DNA of 64,000 nt, taken from Candidatus Gastranaerophilales bacterium. GTDB taxonomy: Bacteria; Cyanobacteriota; Vampirovibrionia; Gastranaerophilales; Gastranaerophilaceae. Positions 52,445 through 64,000 of the stretch are shown in pieces. Below the pieces are notes generated by a model. That model ran no database searches. It worked only from the letters and a program-made list of their open reading frames with translations, and had not been told where the DNA came from. Position 1 is the stretch's first letter, and every line of letters starts with the position of its first letter. A program made the translations under genes and the position numbers. The stretch spans positions 1 through 64,000 of the forward strand of contig CALUYB010000008.1 in assembly GCA_944324905.1 (NCBI GenBank). The letters run 5' to 3'.

Positions 52445-54181
52445 GTGAACGAACATCTAAAAGCCATGGCACTAGACATAAAAAAGATTTGGGACAAATT
52501 TGACCTGAATCAAAAGTTTATAATAGCTGCGCTTTTAGTTGTTGCAATGGTTGTTTGTCTGTATTTTATCTTTAAGGCAACTGAGCCTGATTGGACTGTT
52601 TTATATTCAGAATTATCAAGAGATGATGTGGCTGCAATTACTGAAAGCCTTAAAAAAAGCGGCTATGCTTTTAAATTATCTGAGGATAAGTCTGCAATTT
52701 TAGTTCGTGAGCAAGATAAAGAAAATCTTAGAATTTTCGTTGCAGAAAATGATCTTATAAAGGATTCATCCCCAGGGTTTGAACTTTTAGATGATTTACA
52801 AATGGGCTCAACTGATTTTAAAAATAAACTTACAAAACAAAGAATTTTTCAAGGTGAATTGACACGTTCAATTGAAAAAATAAGCGGTATCCAAAAAGCT
52901 CGTGTCCAGCTTGCAGAGCCTGAGCGCTCAGTGTTTTCTGACGATGATGAAGAACCAAGCGCAAGTGTTATTTTGATACTTGAACCTGGGTATAGGTTAA
53001 AGCCCTCTCAAATTCTTGCAATCAAGAACCTTGTAGCTTATTCTGTACCAAGACTTACAAATGATAGAGTATTTTTAACCGACCAAAATGGAAATGCTCT
53101 GAGTGAAGATGTTTCAAAGAATAATACAGATATGCAAACTTATAGAACATCTTTTGAAAAAGAAGCCGCAAAGAAAATCCAAGATACCCTTGAAACCATA
53201 ATGGGCAAGGATAATGTGTCAGTGCAAGTCAGTGCTGTTATGGACTTTAACTCAACTCGCTCAACAATTGAGAGCTATGTGCCGGCTGATGGTACTCAAG
53301 CAGGTGTAATTTTGGGACAGCAAAGTGAAAAAGAAACATATAAAAAGCCTCAACCTATTGTTTTAAAGAAGGATGAAGTTGCACTTAATCCTGATGATAC
53401 CAATGCGCAAAACCAGCAACAAGGCGCACAAGGTGCTGTTCAAGGAGAGAATGTTCAAAACCCTCAAACTCAAAATGTTATGACAGTTGTTGAAGAACAG
53501 AGCGGAATAAGTGAGGCGGACGAGAACGCAAGAAATGTAACCGATAAAGTCCGCGGTCGCGAATTAAGTTATGAAAAAGAGAAAAATGCGGTTAATTATG
53601 CTGTTACAAAAGAGGTTAAACAGGTTGTTTATGCTCCCGGGGCTGTAACTCGTTTATCTGTTGCGGTTGCGGTTAATAAAATTTTAACAGATGAAGAAAA
53701 AGAAGATATTAAAAATCTTGTAATAGCAGCTGCAGGCATGGATATTGCTCGTGGAGATGTTGTTAATGTTTCAAGTCTTAAATTTATGGGAATAGATAAA
53801 GCAGAACAGTTGCAAACGCTAAACCAAGAAAGATATTCAAAAATTATGGAAATGCTGGAGTTTATATTTTCAAATGTTGCACCTTTAATTGTAGTATTGG
53901 TGCTGGGTATTTTAGGGCTTACAACCTTTTCTTCCATATTTAAAAAGCCAGAGCCTCCAAAGCCTGTTTATCAGGAGGATAATCAGTATAACAATGCTTT
54001 TGACCCTTATTTAATGTTGGGCAACAATGATAATATGGATGCAAATTATTTAGATCAAGCTGAAAATGATGAGCCTGTATTTACCTCTGTTGTGGATAAA
54101 AAACGGGCTGAGATAACAGATATTATTATGAGTGACCCTCAAGATGCTGCAAGATTATTGACGTCATTTATAAAAGAGTAA
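52445..54181 (+). CDS. fliF: Flagellar MS-ring protein FliF
   Basis: FliF is the inner-membrane ring that houses the export gate and mounts FliG. The 578-residue protein has two membrane helices, near residues 27-45 (IIAALLVVAMVVCLYFIF) and 470-490 (VAPLIVVLVLGILGLTTF). The ring-building domains contain DWTVLYSELSRDDVAAITES, LTRSIEKISGIQKARVQLAE-like sequence and the conserved AVTRLSVAVAVNK. The C-terminal cytoplasmic tail (DPQDAARLLTSFIKE) is the FliG-binding helix. The start is GTG 52445; an ATG 24 nt later is a less likely alternative. Confidence 0.96.
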   Translation: MNEHLKAMALDIKKIWDKFDLNQKFIIAALLVVAMVVCLYFIFKATEPDWTVLYSELSRDDVAAITESLKKSGYAFKLSEDKSAILVREQDKENLRIFVAENDLIKDSSPGFELLDDLQMGSTDFKNKLTKQRIFQGELTRSIEKISGIQKARVQLAEPERSVFSDDDEEPSASVILILEPGYRLKPSQILAIKNLVAYSVPRLTNDRVFLTDQNGNALSEDVSKNNTDMQTYRTSFEKEAAKKIQDTLETIMGKDNVSVQVSAVMDFNSTRSTIESYVPADGTQAGVILGQQSEKETYKKPQPIVLKKDEVALNPDDTNAQNQQQGAQGAVQGENVQNPQTQNVMTVVEEQSGISEADENARNVTDKVRGRELSYEKEKNAVNYAVTKEVKQVVYAPGAVTRLSVAVAVNKILTDEEKEDIKNLVIAAAGMDIARGDVVNVSSLKFMGIDKAEQLQTLNQERYSKIMEMLEFIFSNVAPLIVVLVLGILGLTTFSSIFKKPEPPKPVYQEDNQYNNAFDPYLMLGNNDNMDANYLDQAENDEPVFTSVVDKKRAEITDIIMSDPQDAARLLTSFIKE

Positions 54182-54213
54182 AACGAGTAAATAGAGAGAA
54201 GAAATAAAGAGAG

Positions 54214-55236
54214 ATGCTCCCAATACAAGTAGAAGCCATGACACATTCACAAAAGGTTGCCGCACTTATGATAGTGCTGGGGCCTGCTGCTGCTTCTGAA
54301 ATTATGAAGAATATTACCGATGATGATATTCTGGAGCAAATAACTTTAGATATTGCTGCAATGAATAAGCTGCCTATCGAAACTCTGGAAGCCATAGTTG
54401 ATGAATTTCATACTATTTTTCAGGCTAATTCAATGTTGGCGTCAGGCGGTATGAATTATGCCAGACAGCTTTTAGAAAAAGCATATGGTACTGATCAGGC
54501 AAATAAAATTCTTGACAGATTGGTAACTATTTTAAACTCAAATCCGTTTCAGTTTTTTAATGATGCCGATCCTATTCAACTTGCAACTTCTTTTCAAAAT
54601 GAAAACCCACAGTTAATTGCTCTTATTTTGGCATACTTAAAACCTGAGCAATCTGCAAAGGTTTTAAATTGCTTGCCACCTGGTGTGCAACATAAGGTTT
54701 CTTTAAAAATTGCCCAAATGGCAACAACAAACCCTGAGATTATTTCAGAAGTTGAAAAAATTGTCGAAAGCAAGTTTTCAAATGTCGTTATACAAGACTT
54801 TTCAAAAGCAGGCGGTACGGAAGCTCTTGCAAGTATCCTAAACAGAACAGACAGAGCTACTGAGAAAAACGTTATTGAAATGCTTGAAGAAGAAACGCCA
54901 CAGCTTGCTGAAGATGTTAGAAGTCTTATGTTCGTATTTGAAGACATTGTTAACCTTGACGATAGAGCAATTCAGAGAATATTGCGTGAAGTCGATACAA
55001 AAGACCTTGCCCTTTCTCTTAAAGGTTCAAGAGATGATGTTAAAGATAAAATTTTGCGCAATATGTCAGAGCGCGCTCAGGCAATATTGCTTGAAGATAT
55101 GGAGTATATGGGCCCTGTTAGAGCTCGTGAAGTTCAAGAAGTGCAGTCCAGAATTGTTGGTATTATAAGAATGCTTGAACAAAATGGCGAAATCGTTGTT
55201 GTACGCGATGGCGCAGGAGATGAGTTAATTGAGTAG
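54214..55236 (+). CDS. fliG: Flagellar motor switch protein FliG
   Basis: FliG is the C-ring subunit that transmits torque from the stator. It has 340 residues. The N-domain (THSQKVAALMIVLGPAAASE) binds FliF. The middle EHPQ-type motif reads FQNENPQLIALILAYLKPEQ. The C-domain charged torque helix is DDRAIQRILREVDTKDLALS, followed by ILLEDMEYMGPVRAREVQEV. The Shine-Dalgarno of the ATG is weak; an ATG at 54238 would align with the family start but is no better supported. Confidence 0.96.
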   Translation: MLPIQVEAMTHSQKVAALMIVLGPAAASEIMKNITDDDILEQITLDIAAMNKLPIETLEAIVDEFHTIFQANSMLASGGMNYARQLLEKAYGTDQANKILDRLVTILNSNPFQFFNDADPIQLATSFQNENPQLIALILAYLKPEQSAKVLNCLPPGVQHKVSLKIAQMATTNPEIISEVEKIVESKFSNVVIQDFSKAGGTEALASILNRTDRATEKNVIEMLEEETPQLAEDVRSLMFVFEDIVNLDDRAIQRILREVDTKDLALSLKGSRDDVKDKILRNMSERAQAILLEDMEYMGPVRAREVQEVQSRIVGIIRMLEQNGEIVVVRDGAGDELIE

Positions 55237-56164
55237 AATTACATCAGATAAAATCAGTCTGGCCGATTCAATAGTTGTTGATTTTTTTTCAAATGATTCT
55301 CAACAGGAACAAGTTGAGCCAGAAGTTGATACTGTTAATACCGAGGAGATGACAAGGTTAAATCTCTTGCAGCTTGAAGCGCAAGATAAATCACAAAAAA
55401 TTATTGATGAAGCAAGCATGCAAGCTCAAGAAATTCTTGACAAAGCAAGGCTTGAGGCTGACCAGATGATATTAAAAGCTCAAGAAGATTCTCAGAAACT
55501 TAAAAATGAAGCAAATGAACTTTTGGAAAAATCAAAAGTTGAAGCAGATAGTTTGCTTGAAAGTACAAAAAATGAAGTTGAGCAATTAAAGGAAAATGCT
55601 TCTCAAGCTGGTGCAAAGGAAGGCTATCAAGCTGGATATGACGATGGGCTTAAAAATATAAAAGAAGAACTTGTACATAAAATTTTTGCAATGGATGAGG
55701 TCATTAAAAATGCTTTTGAGATGAAGAAAAAAATTATGTCTTCATCAAAAAGAGAAATAGTAGAGTTGGTGCTTATGATAGCACGCAGGGTAGTTCTTAA
55801 CTCTATTGATGAAACAAGCGTTGCGCGTATTGTTGATAAATCAATCTCGCTTTTAAACGATAAAGAAAACATTGAACTCATTTTAAGTGAAAAGTATGCA
55901 AAACTTTTAAATCAAGTTTTAAATGATGATTTGCTTGAGCAAAAGCCTGATTTAGAGATTGATATTGATAAATTACGCAGCATAAAACTTACTTTTAATT
56001 CAAAATTTGCTGATGATACATTAATTGTTCAAACTCCAAAAGAGCGTCTGGACTTAGGTTTTGAATCGCAACTTGATGAAATATCAAAAGAATTTTTAAA
56101 AGAGTTAAACTTGTCTTTTGACAAAGAAGATAAGGAAGTAGAGGAAGAATTTGAACAAGTTTGA
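55229..56164 (+). CDS. fliH: Flagellar export regulator FliH
   Basis: FliH binds FliI as a peripheral stalk of the export ATPase, homologous to ATP synthase b/delta. The 311-residue protein has a long charged coiled coil (LDKARLEADQMILKAQEDSQ) and a C-terminal delta-like domain (SKREIVELVLMIARRVVLNS, DDTLIVQTPKERLDLGFESQ). GYQAGYDDG supplies the Gly spacing motif typical of FliH. The start is TTG 55229, with AGGAG about 8 nt upstream and an 8-nt overlap with fliG. Confidence 0.9.
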   Translation: MSRITSDKISLADSIVVDFFSNDSQQEQVEPEVDTVNTEEMTRLNLLQLEAQDKSQKIIDEASMQAQEILDKARLEADQMILKAQEDSQKLKNEANELLEKSKVEADSLLESTKNEVEQLKENASQAGAKEGYQAGYDDGLKNIKEELVHKIFAMDEVIKNAFEMKKKIMSSSKREIVELVLMIARRVVLNSIDETSVARIVDKSISLLNDKENIELILSEKYAKLLNQVLNDDLLEQKPDLEIDIDKLRSIKLTFNSKFADDTLIVQTPKERLDLGFESQLDEISKEFLKELNLSFDKEDKEVEEEFEQV

Positions 56165-57464
56165 TTTTTCTCCTTATAAAAAAATTGTTGAAAATATTAA
56201 TCCGATTGCAAAAATCGGCAAAGTTGTAGAAATTATTGGTCTAATAATAGAAGCTGACGGGCCTGAATCTTCAATTGGTGACTTGTGTCATATAATATCT
56301 GATGATATGCCTCCCATTTGGGCAGAAGTTGTCGGATTTCGTGAAGATAGGATTTTGCTTATGCCACTGGGGTCAATTGACGGGCTAAAGGCGGGGGCAA
56401 AGGTTGTAAATACCGGCGAAGATATGAAAGTAAAAGTGTCTGACTCCTTGTTAGGCAGGGTTTTAGACGGCTTAGGGAATCCAATTGACGGACTTGGTGA
56501 AATTAGCGCAGATAAATACTATTCAACAGGCGGCAAGCTTATCAATCCGCTTAACAGAAAACCAATTGACGAACCTTTGAGCCTTGGAATACGTGCAGTT
56601 GACGGGCTTATAACCATTGGCAAAGGTCAAAGGATGGGTATTTTTGCAGGCTCAGGTGTTGGTAAAAGCACAACTCTTGCTATGATGGCAAAAAATACCT
56701 CTGCTGATATTAACGTAATAGCTTTAATTGGTGAGCGTGGTAGAGAAGTAAGGGAGTTTATTGAGCACACATTGGGTGTTGAGGGCATGAAGCGCTCTAT
56801 AGTTGTTGTTGCAACGTCTGAGCAACCATCTCTTGTTAAAATCAAAGCAGCTTTTGTAGCTTGTGCAATTGCTGAATATTTTAGGGACAAGGGCAAAGAC
56901 GTTCTTTTTATGCTGGACAGTGTTACCCGTATTGCTCTTGCACAAAGAGAAGTAGGGCTAGCAGTTGGTGAACCGCCTGCAACAAGAGGTTACACTCCTT
57001 CTGTTTTTGCGCTTATGCCAAAATTTTTAGAGCGCGCAGGCTGTAATGAATATGGTACAATAACGGGCTTATACACTGTACTTGTTGAGGGTGATGATTT
57101 TAATGAGCCTGTTTCAGATACTGCAAGAAGTATTTTAGACGGGCATATTATGCTCTCCCGTGCTTTAGCGCATAAAAATCACTATCCTGCAATAGATGTT
57201 CTGCAAAGTATTTCGCGTGTTATGAATAATGTTGTTTCAAAAGAACATAAAAGTGCTGCAGGAAAAATTCGCGCTTTACTTGCAAGTTATGCAAAAAATG
57301 AGGATTTAATAAATATTGGCGCGTATCAAAGAGGGGCTGACCCAATGACAGATAAAGCTATTGCAATAATGGATAAAATCGAGGGGTATTTAATTCAATC
57401 AACTGATGAGAAAACAAATTATGAAGTAAGTGTGGATGAGCTTATAAAATTGGCGCAGCTATAA
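56151..57464 (+). CDS. fliI: Flagellar type III export ATPase FliI
   Basis: FliI is the hexameric ATPase that energises flagellar export. The 437-residue length is standard. Walker A is GIFAGSGVGKSTTLAMMAKN and Walker B KDVLFMLDSVTRIALAQREV. GLAVGEPPATRGYTPSVFAL is the family signature. The start is TTG with a 14-nt overlap with fliH. It is the last gene of the operon; fliJ, fliK and the hook genes do not follow. The stop codon lies inside the terminator hairpin loop. Confidence 0.97.
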   Translation: MNKFDFSPYKKIVENINPIAKIGKVVEIIGLIIEADGPESSIGDLCHIISDDMPPIWAEVVGFREDRILLMPLGSIDGLKAGAKVVNTGEDMKVKVSDSLLGRVLDGLGNPIDGLGEISADKYYSTGGKLINPLNRKPIDEPLSLGIRAVDGLITIGKGQRMGIFAGSGVGKSTTLAMMAKNTSADINVIALIGERGREVREFIEHTLGVEGMKRSIVVVATSEQPSLVKIKAAFVACAIAEYFRDKGKDVLFMLDSVTRIALAQREVGLAVGEPPATRGYTPSVFALMPKFLERAGCNEYGTITGLYTVLVEGDDFNEPVSDTARSILDGHIMLSRALAHKNHYPAIDVLQSISRVMNNVVSKEHKSAAGKIRALLASYAKNEDLINIGAYQRGADPMTDKAIAIMDKIEGYLIQSTDEKTNYEVSVDELIKLAQL

Positions 57465-58733: not shown

Positions 58734-59642
58734 ATGTTAAAGATAGATAATAATATTGCCCAGAGTGGGTTTAGGGTGTTATTTATATTACAACTTTTAA
58801 TGAAAGGGCCAATTTCAAAGGGTCAAATACTAAATGAAATATCGAAAAACTCCCTTTTAAAAAATGTTGCGTCTGATACAATAACGCTTGATATAAATAC
58901 TTTAAAATCCGTAGGTTTTGATATTTCTGCCGGAAACAAAAGTAATAACTACTGTTATGAGTTAAAAATAAATCCCATTAAGGTTAAACTCTCAAAAAGG
59001 GAGATGAAATCTCTTTTGCTGACAAAAAAAGCTATATTTCACTTTATGGATTTCAAGTACATAATTTCCATATATGAAACTTTTAAAAAACTGGCAAGAC
59101 ATATTGAATTTGATGAGCAACTTGAATCTTTATTGAATTTTGGAAATATTTTAAAAACTAACTTTGAAATACTGCATGAGCTTGATGTGCATGTCAGACA
59201 TAATAATGAAATTATTCTTTATTATAATTCTCCCTCAGGCAAAAGTCGCGAGATGAAGCTAATTTGCACAAGGCTTGAATATTCAAGAAAAAATGACAAG
59301 TTGTATTTGTGGGGGGAATGTGATGAGTATGGAGTGGTTTATTTAAGGTGCGACCATATAAAAAAAATATTAAAAGTTACAAAAATAAATGCAAGGTCGC
59401 AACTGGGCTCAAAAAAATGTGTGTATAAAGTTTCTAAAAAAAGAAATTTGCCTGAAAATGATGCAAGTAAAATTATAAAAATTACACCTGAGTATATAAA
59501 AATAAGAGAAGAATATTCAAACGATTTTTATCTCAAGCAAAAACTTTTATCCTATGGCAGCGAGCTTTTGGATGTTGAAGATGAAAAAATTAAATCCGAA
59601 TTAATAAAAATCATTCAAGATGTAGAGGAGATGTATATTTGA
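58734..59642 (+). CDS. WYL-domain transcriptional regulator, first of a pair
   Basis: A 302-residue protein with an N-terminal winged-helix-like region (GFRVLFILQLLMKGPISKGQ, TLDINTLKSVGFDISAG). A central WYL fold follows (ILYYNSPSGKSREMKLICTR, LEYSRKNDKLYLWGECDEYG), in which LYLWG holds the place of the W-Y-L motif. A C-terminal extension follows. WYL regulators bind small ligands or nucleic acid and often respond to DNA damage or control defence genes. It overlaps the next gene by 4 nt, and the two paralogues probably act as a heterodimer like PafB/PafC. Confidence 0.82.
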   Translation: MLKIDNNIAQSGFRVLFILQLLMKGPISKGQILNEISKNSLLKNVASDTITLDINTLKSVGFDISAGNKSNNYCYELKINPIKVKLSKREMKSLLLTKKAIFHFMDFKYIISIYETFKKLARHIEFDEQLESLLNFGNILKTNFEILHELDVHVRHNNEIILYYNSPSGKSREMKLICTRLEYSRKNDKLYLWGECDEYGVVYLRCDHIKKILKVTKINARSQLGSKKCVYKVSKKRNLPENDASKIIKITPEYIKIREEYSNDFYLKQKLLSYGSELLDVEDEKIKSELIKIIQDVEEMYI

Positions 59643-60520
59643 GGAAAATTGACGCATCTTATCGAATAATAAAAATTTTTAAAATGCTTTATGAAAAACC
59701 GCACTCTATGAATGAAATTATAGATGAGTTTTGCGCGGAGGATATTCTGATAAGCAAGGAAACTGTTGTAAAGTATTTTAAAACAATCAGACAGTCAGGT
59801 TGTATTTTGAGGAAAAAGCAGGGCAGGTTTTCAATTGAGAGTATACCTTTTACTTTGAATTTAACTGATAAGGATTACGAAAATCTTGCGCTTTTTGTAA
59901 ATCTCGGGGTGGATTTGTATGGTGAGAGCATGCAGCAGGATTTAAAAAATATCCTGAAAAAGTTTTTATCCCTTGCAGATAAAAGTGCTTATGAAAAAAG
60001 CATTTTTTATCTTAATGAACACAGGTTAAATTCAAGTGAATCCTTTGCTTTTAAGGAAAAAATTTCAAAGTTACTAAATTACGGTTGTGACAATTCAAAA
60101 ATAAAAATTTTATATAACGGAGAAAAAATATCTATATCACACATTACATTCAAGTATTTTGACAATTGTGTATATGTCCATGCTTTTAATGAGGCACTCA
60201 AAAATTATGAATTATATTCCTTGGATGATGTTAAAGAAATATATTCAACTCCTGAAATCCCATTGCAAAGTACTTTTGCTCCACATACGGTTTTTGAATT
60301 GTATGGCAGGTTAGCAAAGACTTATACGCTTTATGAAGGCGAAAGGGTAATAAAAGTTAAGGAGGATGCGATTGTAATTTCAAATAATTTTGAAGATAAA
60401 AAGCAACTTTTTAAAAGGCTCATCCGCTACGGCACTCTTTGTAAAATAATATCAACAAAAAGCGATGTAGAAAATTTTAGGGCTATGCTCAAGGAAATGA
60501 AAAACAACTTATCGAGCTAG
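59639..60520 (+). CDS. WYL-domain transcriptional regulator, second of a pair
   Basis: A 293-residue paralogue of the preceding protein. The N-terminal helix-turn-helix reads RIIKIFKMLYEKPHSMNEII and ISKETVVKYFKTIRQSGCIL, the HTH_11-type start of the family. The WYL region (IKILYNGEKISISHITFKYF, DNCVYVHAFNEALKNYELYS) is more degenerate than in its partner. The start is TTG 59639, overlapping the partner's stop by 4 nt, so translation is coupled. No target operon is adjacent on this strand: a convergent gene overlaps its end by 4 nt. Confidence 0.8.
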   Translation: MRKIDASYRIIKIFKMLYEKPHSMNEIIDEFCAEDILISKETVVKYFKTIRQSGCILRKKQGRFSIESIPFTLNLTDKDYENLALFVNLGVDLYGESMQQDLKNILKKFLSLADKSAYEKSIFYLNEHRLNSSESFAFKEKISKLLNYGCDNSKIKILYNGEKISISHITFKYFDNCVYVHAFNEALKNYELYSLDDVKEIYSTPEIPLQSTFAPHTVFELYGRLAKTYTLYEGERVIKVKEDAIVISNNFEDKKQLFKRLIRYGTLCKIISTKSDVENFRAMLKEMKNNLSS

Positions 60521-61245
60521 TTTATGCCCTGTTTTTCATAAGCTAAAATAATATTTCTTATTTCATAATCGTTGGGTTTTGTAGAGTATGCATACCTGTA
60601 ATACTCAAGGGCAAGCTCTTTTTTGTTTGCATTTTCAAGAATTTTTGCAATGTTAAAGTAGGCATCTGTAAGCATAGGGTCGATGTTTATTGCAATTGCA
60701 TATTCAAAAACACTTTCCTGATAGTTTCCATTTAGTCTTAAAATATCTGCTTTTAAAAAATGACCCTCAGTATTCAGGGGATTTTCTTTTAGTGCTAAAT
60801 TAATTGTCTCAAGTGCGTCTTTATATTTTTCTTTGTTCTTTAAATTCATTGCGCGTGCAAAAAGTTCATTGTAACTTGGTGTTATTTTTGCTGCTGCTTG
60901 AATATTTTTAGGATTAAGTGAAAGGTTGTATTCTTTTGGGATTTTTTCGTAGTTAAGAACTTTTTGTGCAGGTTTTTGAACAGTAAAGAGATTTTTTTCG
61001 CTTAGCATATTTATTGGGCGAAAGTCCTTAAAATAAGCTATATTTACTTCTTCGTTACTAATGGCCGGTAAATTTTTAGGGCTTATATTGGTTGTGTTGG
61101 TTATTTGATTATTAACATCAAGGTAAAATTCATAAACTACACCAGCGTTTATTTTTTCGGCACAAAAAGAGGGGTTAATGGTGCAAATTGCAATGATTAA
61201 CGCTAAAAATACAAACAAATGATTTTTTTTATATAAATCAGTCAT
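60517..61245 (-). CDS. Exported TPR protein
   Basis: A 242-residue protein with an N-terminal signal peptide (NHLFVFLALIIAICTINPSF then CA-E), so it is periplasmic or, if the Cys is lipidated, membrane-anchored; the lipobox is poor. The C-terminal 110 residues hold three TPR units (YNELFARAMNLKNKEKYKDA, GHFLKADILRLNGNYQESVF, AYFNIAKILENANKKELALE). ATG 61245 overlaps the stop of the upstream HD gene by 8 nt and is preferred over an ATG 57 nt further up that would spoil the signal peptide. The partner proteins are unknown. Confidence 0.8.
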   Translation of the reverse strand: MTDLYKKNHLFVFLALIIAICTINPSFCAEKINAGVVYEFYLDVNNQITNTTNISPKNLPAISNEEVNIAYFKDFRPINMLSEKNLFTVQKPAQKVLNYEKIPKEYNLSLNPKNIQAAAKITPSYNELFARAMNLKNKEKYKDALETINLALKENPLNTEGHFLKADILRLNGNYQESVFEYAIAINIDPMLTDAYFNIAKILENANKKELALEYYRYAYSTKPNDYEIRNIILAYEKQGIN

Positions 61246-61843
61246 TTTCAAGATAAATTTTTGTTTTGAATACTTCCTCAAAAAGAGTTTTTTTCTTGTC
61301 AAAAACCCTTTTAATCCCCTTGTTAAATATTATATTTACCTGCGGATTTAAAGTCAAAACAGCTTTGTTAAAATCATACGTTAGCAGGATATTTTGAACG
61401 CTCTGCAGGTGATTACAGTCAAGAGAATCTGCAAGTCTTAAAATTGAGGAAATGACTTTTACGGTATTTTTATCCTTTTGATTTAATGAACTAAAGAGTT
61501 TATGTTTTTCTTTCGGTTTAGAACCTCTGTGATACCTTGCACATAGGGCAACGGTTTTTGTTTGCTCGATTGTCAAATCATCTATTTTGTTTTCTAAAAT
61601 TAACTTTGCACTAACTTTGTTGTGTGGTTTTAAAAGCGATATGCTTAAATTTGTGCCTATGTCATGCAAAAGCGCGCTGTAGGAAATTAATTTTTCGGCA
61701 TTTTCAAAATTAAGCAGGTGGTTATTGGGAAATATTTCTTTTAAGTTAAAATAAATTTCAAGACTTATTTCTTTTGTATGTTTAGCGTGTTCTAAGTCAC
61801 TTTTTGAGGTTAGGTAATTTTTTAAAAATTCCTCTACTTTCAT
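61238..61843 (-). CDS. Stand-alone HD-domain protein like the Ppx/GppA C-terminal domain
   Basis: A 201-residue protein. Its sequence matches the C-terminal HD domain of exopolyphosphatase/pppGpp phosphohydrolases: EHAKHTKEISLEI, YSALLHDIGTNLSIS (HD at residues 60-61), ALCARYHRGSKPKEKHKLF and ILRLADSLDCNHLQSV. The N-terminal actin-like catalytic domain of Ppx/GppA is absent, and the gene starts cleanly, so this is not a truncation by the window. HD residues could bind a metal and give phosphohydrolase activity on a nucleotide such as (p)ppGpp, but this is inference. It sits 3 nt after the CheA hybrid and overlaps the TPR gene. Confidence 0.8.
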   Translation of the reverse strand: MKVEEFLKNYLTSKSDLEHAKHTKEISLEIYFNLKEIFPNNHLLNFENAEKLISYSALLHDIGTNLSISLLKPHNKVSAKLILENKIDDLTIEQTKTVALCARYHRGSKPKEKHKLFSSLNQKDKNTVKVISSILRLADSLDCNHLQSVQNILLTYDFNKAVLTLNPQVNIIFNKGIKRVFDKKKTLFEEVFKTKIYLEND

Positions 61844-61846
61844 TTT

Positions 61847-64000
61847 TTAGGCCTTTTTTAAAAAATTATCTACACTTCTTACAAAACTTTCCTGTTCAAA
61901 GCGGTCTTTTTGAATGTATAATTGCGCTCCAGCCTCTTTAAACAGTTTTCCCCATTTGGATTCAGGCATGGAGGTAAGAACAATAATCGGAATATTTGTC
62001 CAAGAGTCTTCTTTTCTTATTTCTTTTACAAATTCAAGCCCGCTCATTTGCGGCATTTCATTGTCTGTAATTACTAAGTCAAATTTTTCTTTGTGCATTT
62101 TAATTAATGCATCAGGTGCATTAGTTGCAATTTGTACCCTATAACCGTAACTTTGCAGAATATTTTTTTGTAGTGTTCTTGTAGTTAGAGAATCGTCTAC
62201 TACAAGGATTTTATGAGAGTAATTTTCTCTCATTTTAATTGCTTTGTTTGATGCAATAATTTTTGTGTTTATTTTCTTTGGCAAGGTAGTGCTGAAAATG
62301 TCGCCTACATTTAAAATAAGGCATATTTCACCATTTGCAAGAGTTGTGATACCTGAGATATTTTTTACTTTAAATAATGGTGCTTCCAGTTTTTTGTGCA
62401 GTACCTCTTGATCGTAAACTAATTTTTCTACAATTATTCCAACCAGTAAATTGTCCGATTTTACAATCATTAAAGTGTATTTATTTGCATGGCGCGGTTT
62501 GTTTTCTAATTCAAGAATTTGTGAAAGTGTGTAAACAGGTATAACATCGTCATTGTGAACGTAGTAGTTTTTGCCGTCACGCTCAAAAACATCTGTTGTG
62601 TCAATTCTAAGCACTGTTTTTATTGAGGATGTTGGTATGGCGTATAATTGGTCTTGTTCTGATACTATAAATGTTTTAATTGTTGCCATGCTTGCAGGCA
62701 GCTCTATTGTTACCATAGTACCTTTTTTAAATTCGCTGAAAATATCGACCCTGCCGTTTAGTTGAGATATTTTAGTGTGAACAATATCAAGCCCTAAGCC
62801 TCTGCCTGAAAGTTCTGTTACTGAATCTCCGGTTGTAAACCCCGGGTAGAAAATAAGATTTACAAGGTGTTCCTCGTCAATGTTATCTATTTCTTCTTGT
62901 GTTAAAAGTCCCTTTTCAAGCGCTTTTTGTTTAATTTTTTCAACATCTAAGCCTCGACCGTCATCAGTTACATTGATTATGATTTTGTTTTCATGGTGTT
63001 TTGCGCTTATTGTTATTTTGCCTACAGGGTTTTTTCCGTCATCTTTTCTTTCTTGCGGTAATTCTATGCCATGGTCAATTGAATTTCTTAAAATATGAAT
63101 AAGCGGGATTTTTATTTCTTCAATGATTTTTTTATCCGCTGCAACATCTGCACCCTCTGTAATAAATTCTATTTGCTTGCCTTTGTCTTTTGCAATGTTA
63201 TGTACCATGCGCGGAAAAAGGTGAAAAATTGTAGATAATGGCAAAATGCGCATGTTTTTAACCATACCTTCAATTTCTGTTGTAGCAGAGTTTAGTTTAG
63301 TGTCATTTTCTTGCATTTGTTTAAAAAGGTCGGACGTTTCTTTTATTAAATGCACCATTTTTTCGGCATGGTAGTTTTGTAGTACCATAAGTTGCCTGTT
63401 AAAAGCTGAAATTGCCCGTGGGTCAGGGGATATGCCAAGATTTGAATTTGCTATATATTTTCTGTCGAAATATTTAATATAATAGCCCATTTTGTTAAAG
63501 CTTTTTTGCCACTCTAAAAGCTCATTTTGAATATTTTTTGCAACACTTAAATGCTCATTTGTTTTAATTCTTGTGATAATCAAATCTCCAATTTGATTAA
63601 CTAATTTATCGAGTTTATACGAGTCAATTCTAAGCGTTTTAATGTCGCTCGTGTCAATTGTGCTAATCCAGTCTTGCGTGGTTTTTTCTGTTTTTGGCAG
63701 ACTCTTTTGGAGTTTTGGTTTTACAATGTTGATTTTAGACATTTGCTCAACAATTGTAATTTTTTGCAGCAAAAGTTCTATTTCAAATTTCCTCTCCTCA
63801 GGTTTAATAACTTCAGGTTCAAAAATTTTTCTTGTGTTTTCGCAAATTTCTTTTATAGCTTCAAGAGTGTCGTTTTCAAGGTTTTTTGAGTTATTTTCGT
63901 ATAAATTTAAAATATTTAGGATTGTTTCAAATATTTTTTTAATTTCAAAATTTTTAACCATTGTGAGAACTTGTGCTAAAAGTCCTTTTATATCAGGTAA
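61847..64000 (-). CDS. CheA-CheW-receiver hybrid kinase (PixL-like), 5' end outside the window
   Basis: A chemotaxis-type histidine kinase. The frame stays open to base 64000 with no stop upstream of the ATG at 63961 (it reads LPDIKGLLAQVLTMV), so the gene is almost certainly cut by the window edge and its HPt domain lies beyond. Visible in order are a dimerisation helix pair (DKLVNQIGDLIITRIKTNEH), the HATPase domain (LIHILRNSIDHGIELPQERK, NVTDDGRGLDVEKI, LSGRGLGLDIVHTKI), a CheW domain (FIVSEQDQLYAIPTSSIKTV) and a C-terminal receiver with the acceptor Asp in LVITDNEMPQMSG. This order is typical of cyanobacterial PixL/TaxAY-type kinases controlling phototaxis or pilus motility. Confidence 0.92.
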   Translation of the reverse strand, partial: LPDIKGLLAQVLTMVKNFEIKKIFETILNILNLYENNSKNLENDTLEAIKEICENTRKIFEPEVIKPEERKFEIELLLQKITIVEQMSKINIVKPKLQKSLPKTEKTTQDWISTIDTSDIKTLRIDSYKLDKLVNQIGDLIITRIKTNEHLSVAKNIQNELLEWQKSFNKMGYYIKYFDRKYIANSNLGISPDPRAISAFNRQLMVLQNYHAEKMVHLIKETSDLFKQMQENDTKLNSATTEIEGMVKNMRILPLSTIFHLFPRMVHNIAKDKGKQIEFITEGADVAADKKIIEEIKIPLIHILRNSIDHGIELPQERKDDGKNPVGKITISAKHHENKIIINVTDDGRGLDVEKIKQKALEKGLLTQEEIDNIDEEHLVNLIFYPGFTTGDSVTELSGRGLGLDIVHTKISQLNGRVDIFSEFKKGTMVTIELPASMATIKTFIVSEQDQLYAIPTSSIKTVLRIDTTDVFERDGKNYYVHNDDVIPVYTLSQILELENKPRHANKYTLMIVKSDNLLVGIIVEKLVYDQEVLHKKLEAPLFKVKNISGITTLANGEICLILNVGDIFSTTLPKKINTKIIASNKAIKMRENYSHKILVVDDSLTTRTLQKNILQSYGYRVQIATNAPDALIKMHKEKFDLVITDNEMPQMSGLEFVKEIRKEDSWTNIPIIVLTSMPESKWGKLFKEAGAQLYIQKDRFEQESFVRSVDNFLKKA

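Follow-up and report, generated by a model that had tools for sequence, protein, structure and literature searches.

A putative Ppx/GppA domain III HD protein encoded alone beside chemosensory and GGDEF genes in the family Gastranaerophilaceae

Introduction

HD phosphohydrolases bind metal through ligands of the form H...HD...D, with two further histidines for a second metal. Within this superfamily, HD-GYP proteins have the ligand pattern H-HD-H-H-D, and hydrolases of the SpoT/Mesh1 type carry the motif HDxxED. In Ppx/GppA enzymes the catalytic half is the actin-like one, and since the HD half is fused to it, the role of the HD half itself is hard to read. Two phosphodiesterases that have been tied to chemosensory or Wsp proteins serve as comparisons in this study, and we take Pch of Pseudomonas aeruginosa to be of the EAL type and RpfG to be of the HD-GYP type. 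Published reports describe Pch as a c-di-GMP phosphodiesterase in complex with CheA, i.e., with both a physical and a functional tie to this kinase (PMC3861689), and describe binding of RpfG by WspR in Lysobacter (PMC9758175).

Here, we analyze a locus in a 64,000-nucleotide stretch (contig CALUYB010000008.1, positions 1 to 64,000; hereafter the window) from a genome of Candidatus Gastranaerophilales, a relative of cyanobacteria that lives in the gut, where an HD domain of the Ppx/GppA type is encoded on its own next to the gene for a CheA hybrid kinase. Our searches of the open-licence literature returned nothing on an HD domain phosphohydrolase together with CheA and chemotaxis, nor on the Pfam family PF21447; searches combining Melainabacteria with c-di-GMP returned only papers that appear unrelated by title, and no description of the stand-alone HD protein was found in this literature.

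Results

Identity of the HD protein

The features of the locus are collected in Table 1. An initial annotation, made from the sequence alone, had read the HD gene as the HD part of Ppx/GppA occurring without its actin-like half, and both parts of this reading hold. The profile Ppx-GppA_III (PF21447) matches residues 16-166 of the protein at 48 bits (cut-off 27.3) and the general Pfam HD profile matches at 27.9 bits (cut-off 22), and PF21447 also matches all of the 27 diverse stand-alone members that we scanned (E <= 0.001). A sequence comparison with the PDB (E up to 1) yields six Ppx sequences, aligned over domain III. In an AlphaFold2 model of the window protein, made with five relatives (mean pLDDT 85.1, pTM 0.87; the other four of the five models were poor, with mean pLDDT of 45-59), Foldseek ranks 1-26 are all Ppx/GppA chains. 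The model superposes on residues 309-484 of 6pc0 with Z 21.0 and an rmsd of 2.2 over 175 aligned residues, and its match to Helicobacter pylori PPX/GppA (Z 21.0) takes in residues 1-199, i.e., the whole length. Thus the best matches by profile and by fold are to Ppx/GppA and not to an unrelated HD family.

Table 1. Features of the HD locus in the window
Feature	Coordinates	Strand	Details
Stand-alone Ppx/GppA domain III HD protein	61238..61843	minus	201 aa, ATG start; assigned by ORF, Pfam, predicted fold and alignment
CheA-REC hybrid kinase	61847..64000	minus	704 aa counted from an internal ATG within the window
TPR protein, signal-peptide-like start, 3' of HD	60517..61245	minus	likely ATG at 61245; listed TTG at 61302
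Two regulator-like genes	58734..60520	plus	302 and 293 aa; convergent with the TPR gene

Other HD hydrolases (2pq7, 3ccg, PgpH and SAMHD1) fit the model at Z of about 10-12, and a dGTPase is also among the Foldseek matches. We read the VIA rows beyond Ppx, at Z 10-12, as a shared fold only, as far as a predicted model allows. No HD-GYP chain is among the 50 VIA rows listed, and the HD-GYP chain 4r8z is found at Foldseek rank 41. The HD-GYP profile PF13487 gave no match to the window protein, with E allowed up to 1, or to any of the 27 diverse members, with a limit of 0.001. By profile and predicted fold, we therefore place the protein in the Ppx/GppA domain III family; judged from its sequence, it is not a Ppx/GppA enzyme, nor by profile an HD-GYP protein, nor by motif a SpoT-type hydrolase.

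The source genome (1.66 Mb, 99.5% completeness) gave no match to the actin-like half (PF02541), either beside the HD gene or elsewhere, with control matches in 10 of 14 genomes, and PF02541 had no match in any of the 191 genomes of the family. PPK1 (PF02503) likewise had no match in the source genome, with control matches in 7 of 14 genomes; no Ppx was found there, and one Rel is present. PF21447 scores above its cut-off in 91 of the 191 family genomes, once in each and in open frames of 187-329 aa (genome G013 contains one more, which falls below the cut-off), and the other 100 have no match at all. Over the phylum, 297 of 386 genomes have a match, and among the frames listed outside the family, those of four class-mates included, PF21447 lies in frames of at least 532 aa.

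Among named records, the nearest come from MAGs of Candidatus Gastranaerophilales and from one uncultured bacterium, and a scan of genome contigs found five close relatives only. Comparison with the named relative closest to it (89% identity) gives a dN of 0.051 and a dS of 0.317, and this ratio, together with presence in 91 of the 191 family genomes, shows the gene to be more than a chance reading frame. Four pattern matches occurred in viral contigs, none of them confirmed. Two scans of plasmid sequences gave 9 and 14 records with a match, and the genes in the four records that we examined are of the Ppx type and about 510 aa long, one of them confirmed by Pfam. In a record of Acetoanaerobium noterae (L203:1183-4522; 2.63 Mb, labelled plasmid, with 4 annotated features), two adjacent Ppx-type genes are followed by a 704-aa polyphosphate-kinase-like gene.

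The metal site

The window protein has the ligands H19-H60/D61-H74-H105-D139, with RYHR at 103-106 and K184, a pattern that by sequence agrees with that of metal-dependent HD phosphohydrolases. The HD (H60 D61) and RLADSLD (R136-D142) motifs described as intact in the initial annotation are both present, and no metal ligand is missing from the sequence. In our alignment, all six ligands are found in 37 of 38 CheA-linked and in 53 of 53 cyclase-linked proteins; the one exception, L030, is an alignment gap at H19, and the histidine is present in another alignment. In addition, R103, Y104, H105, R106, P110 and K184 do not vary among the 27 diverse members.

Full-length Ppx proteins of the phylum present a different picture. 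None of the 34 sampled (the 30 best-scoring and 4 class-mates) has all six ligands: in the 30 best-scoring, D61 is replaced by Asn and D139 by Val or Ile, and in the 4 class-mates the sole difference is Glu for D139. Outside the phylum, one of the four full-length Ppx that we viewed, a Clostridial protein (L203), has all six, so that a complete set does not single out the stand-alone form. A decaying remnant of Ppx is ruled out by the conservation of the ligands together with dN/dS. We consider it quite probable that the protein is an active metal hydrolase.

What such an enzyme would act on is a separate matter, and the initial annotation had favored a stringent-response role. A (p)ppGpp hydrolase or stringent-response sensor would be SAH-like, would lower (p)ppGpp and would tie starvation to motility, and this idea draws on the closest fold, PPX/GppA domain III, for which a PPX/GppA-ppGpp complex has been solved, and on the Rel of this genome, which could make (p)ppGpp. 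However, HDxxED is replaced by HDIGTN in the HD protein, whereas the genome's own Rel reads HDILED, the gene neighbors are chemosensory and GGDEF genes, and the actin-like half has no match in the genome or the family. With HDxxED absent, Rel already present and neither Ppx nor PPK1 found, we find the stringent-response role unsupported and regard it as very improbable.

Linkage to cheA

In the window, 3 nt (61844-61846) separate the cheA stop from the HD start. This link to the CheA hybrid, which had been pointed out before, recurs in all 38 HD genes of the CheA setting. The cheA frame runs past the window to contig position 64912 and includes an N-terminal Hpt domain, and Pfam places a Response_reg (receiver) domain at the C-terminal end. 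The reported overlap with an exported TPR gene is real as to the overlap, which is 8 nt from the likely ATG at 61245 or 65 nt from the listed TTG; as to export, the N-terminus of the TPR protein reads like a signal peptide.

In the chemosensory cluster, the genes for an MCP, CheA-REC and the HD protein share one strand, and a double CheW gene, in some loci together with a REC-GGDEF gene, occupies the other; Pfam finds Hpt, MCPsignal and CheW domains in it. The gene order cheA-HD-TPR-regulators is common to close relatives, and in five named loci it continues to S1 and fliI. The regulator-like pair, of which only the second gene has an HTH match, weak and sub-threshold, is kept beside the TPR gene in close relatives; we count it as flank, outside the module claimed here. 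At 52445-57464 of the window, near the chemosensory cluster, we read fliF-, fliG-, fliH- and fliI-like genes, and because of these the window species is probably flagellated.

We then crossed HD loci with matches to CheA (PF02895) across the 191 family genomes. A CheA match is present in 37 of the 91 HD genomes, and in 37 of 37 the HD gene has the same orientation and lies 1643-1844 bp downstream of the PF02895 match. One further genome, G067, has no PF02895 match, yet contains a CheA fragment beside the HD gene at a contig end, so that the HD genes in the CheA setting total 38 (37 genomes with a match, the window included, and G067). In the 37 loci fetched besides the window (36 PF02895-positive genomes and G067), the HD start was -41 to +24 nt from the cheA stop in every case, with starts as taken by the script.

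Presence of the two genes across the family is not correlated (both, 37 genomes; HD only, 54; CheA only, 49; neither, 51; Fisher p 0.31), and we count the 49 of 86 CheA-positive genomes without HD against the reading of a common module. In genome G026 (L044:1-3797), the TPR gene directly follows cheA and HD is missing; six genus-mates keep HD. Genome G029, which has CheA and no HD gene, encodes a GAF-GGDEF-HD-GYP protein beside the CheW gene of the cluster (L181:3463-5400). The HD of this protein reads YDIG, and the protein is possibly an HD substitute, one case among the seven HD-less loci that we viewed upstream.

Linkage to a divergent GGDEF gene

The remaining 54 of the 91 HD genomes have no CheA match, or 53 once G067 is set aside, and each of these 53 encodes, beside HD and divergent from it (head-to-head), a GGDEF protein of 217-259 aa. 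The script's distance window was passed by 51 of the 53; L119 and L128 show as overlaps, an upstream HD start having been taken there. The motif of these small cyclases is GGEEF in 49, GGDEF in 1 and GGEEI in 3, and the three that we scanned with Pfam match GGDEF at 156-169 bits and have no receiver domain.

In 15 wider CheA-less loci, the cyclase is the -1 neighbor of HD in 15 of 15, and the commonest gene is present in 6 of 15 at -2, 10 of 15 at +1 and 2 of 15 at +2. The +1 gene of these ten loci encodes a conserved protein of about 94 aa (e.g., L051:4669-4956), and the one that we scanned has no Pfam match. None of the 15 loci has a gene labelled as CheW.

HD as a chemotaxis-only protein is ruled out by the 54 of 91 HD genomes without a CheA match. 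The tie to motility signaling proposed initially is borne out as far as the linkage to CheA goes, and needs widening for the 53 HD genomes that have no CheA match and keep a GGDEF partner. Since these genomes keep HD beside GGDEF, the partner is better called chemosensory/c-di-GMP signaling.

The same loci bear on a role in which the protein would be no nucleotide enzyme and would instead partner the receiver domain of CheA or REC-GGDEF, either as a scaffold or as a phosphatase-like protein. We know of no HD-fold receiver phosphatase. The position of HD directly 3' of CheA, which in the window ends in a receiver domain, would suit such a partner, and in Lysobacter, RpfG is reported to be able to bind a Wsp cyclase and inhibit it in a way that does not depend on the activity of RpfG itself (PMC9758175). 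Against this, the three scanned small cyclases linked to HD have no receiver domain, and a scaffold would not need six fully conserved metal ligands. We judge a receiver partner of this kind unlikely and retain the phosphohydrolase reading.

Relation between the two settings

The HD tree was built from 125 domain III sequences (38 CheA-linked, 53 cyclase-linked and 34 Ppx). In it, the cyclase-linked HDs form one clade (100/96), with the CheA-linked HDs of genus g17 as neighbors (98/93). All 53 cyclase-linked genomes hence trace to one rearrangement and are not independent events. The tree itself is unrooted; on our reading, by parsimony with Ppx as outgroup, linkage to cheA would be the older state.

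The two cyclases are related as well. A profile of the small cyclases scores 212-258 bits against the cluster REC-GGDEF in 13 loci of other genera, versus 151-188 bits against 15 other GGDEFs, and a GGDEF tree of 53 rows (26 of the 53 small cyclases, 13 cluster proteins and 14 others) puts the small cyclases and the cluster REC-GGDEF on one side, against the 14 other GGDEFs, with support of 100/99. The other GGDEFs are a sample from the best-scoring matches, plus one from L181; an earlier tree of 56 rows was blurred by long branches, and three rows (two degenerate ones from the window's own genus and one other) were dropped. We infer that the divergent cyclase-HD pair would arise if the cluster lost mcp and cheA, and since no CheW is labelled in the 15 wider CheA-less loci, more than mcp and cheA was lost.

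A single origin of the cyclase linkage would also suit a phosphohydrolase for a housekeeping nucleotide or some other phosphate compound, whose signaling linkage was inherited by chance, as would the fit of other HD hydrolases to the model and the dGTPase match. Yet neighbor turnover is high around the cyclase-HD pair and not within it, and the other setting also puts HD with a signaling kinase. Chance inheritance seems to us improbable, and with both linkages and the relatedness of the cyclases, HD and the cyclase seem to be the retained core of a Wsp-like chemosensory c-di-GMP module.

The cyclase of the cluster is not intact everywhere. In the window's genus and its nearest relatives (four loci assigned to the genus and two named relatives), the cluster GGDEF scores 39-48 bits and has no GGDEF motif in 6 of 6 loci, and this REC-GGDEF gene has degenerated in all 5 of the close relatives viewed. 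The window's own copy, which faces the mcp-cheA-HD operon, lies at 66047-67447 of contig 8 (L037:2047-3447) and reads YRNEDNI at the motif site. RYGGEE is kept in the 13 loci of other genera (9 with HD and 4 without). In the stretch viewed beside the cluster in other genera, REC-GGDEF is absent from 9 of 18 loci with HD and 3 of 7 without. With the cluster GGDEF degenerate or absent in this way, the nucleotide link is strongest in the relatives and weakest in the window.

Discussion

Taken as a whole, the best explanation of these data, which we hold with moderate confidence, is a free-standing HD phosphohydrolase of a chemosensory, c-di-GMP-linked module. That the protein works in such a module at all is probable, and the evidence suggests an uncharacterised enzyme of second-messenger signaling. 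For catalysis, substrate, the direction of the signal and contact with CheA or the cyclase, we infer the following course. The module would comprise an MCP, the double CheW, the CheA-REC kinase, the REC-GGDEF cyclase and the HD protein. A signal received by the MCP would reach CheA and lead to phosphorylation of the receiver domains, and REC-GGDEF, where its GGDEF is intact, would make c-di-GMP. The HD protein would hydrolyze a phosphodiester or phosphoanhydride bond of a nucleotide of the pathway, so that the signal would be limited or ended. First candidates for this nucleotide are c-di-GMP or its product pGpG, an assignment that we make tentatively. In the sub-lineage without a CheA match, the cyclase and HD would have stayed together as the divergent pair. 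The window's genus has lost the GGDEF motif, and there the module may feed a different output, perhaps the flagellum.

The protein is not the sole c-di-GMP phosphodiesterase of these bacteria, a possibility ruled out by HD-GYP (PF13487) matches in every one of the 191 family genomes, 20 of which also have EAL matches. Since GGDEF matches are likewise present in all 191, turnover of c-di-GMP does not depend on HD. Bolder, and in our view doubtful, would be a lineage-specific class of phosphohydrolases of the c-di-GMP pathway, neither EAL nor HD-GYP and made up of lone Ppx/GppA domain III proteins with the full HD metal site, which would antagonize the output of a Wsp-like chemosensory cyclase and would persist where the kinase is lost. 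As the HD half is found here alone, with its full ligands and inherited with chemosensory and GGDEF genes, its own activity becomes directly testable. If it degrades c-di-GMP or pGpG, the network would gain a further enzyme class, and a chemosensory operon would carry its own signal breaker.

Comparison with known systems

The protein shares with Ppx/GppA the domain III fold, predicted over its whole length, a profile score above cut-off and the RYHR motif, which is present in 34 of 34 sampled full-length Ppx. Unlike Ppx/GppA, it is without the actin-like PF02541, which is missing by profile from all 191 family genomes, and it has all six ligands, versus 0 of 34 in the phylum's Ppx; Ppx of Escherichia coli and Deinococcus have HE where the stand-alone protein has HD. 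With the hydrolase domain of SpoT, Rel and Mesh1 it shares the HD superfamily but not HDxxED. HD-GYP phosphodiesterases (PF13487) resemble it more closely, in the superfamily, in the H-HD-H-H-D ligand pattern and in that HD is kept with GGDEF partners in 53 genomes. However, the protein has RYHR...P in place of the GYP motif, and PF13487 proteins are present besides it in every family genome.

As in Pch, the protein is tied to CheA, here by gene linkage, with contact and activity as presumptions, and it belongs to a different protein family. The likeness to Wsp lies in MCP, CheW-type protein, CheA with Hpt and receiver domains and REC-GGDEF being encoded together (PMC8552884). Unlike Wsp (WspA-F, WspR), the locus has its REC-GGDEF gene divergent, and in some genera degenerate or missing, and an HD protein is added.
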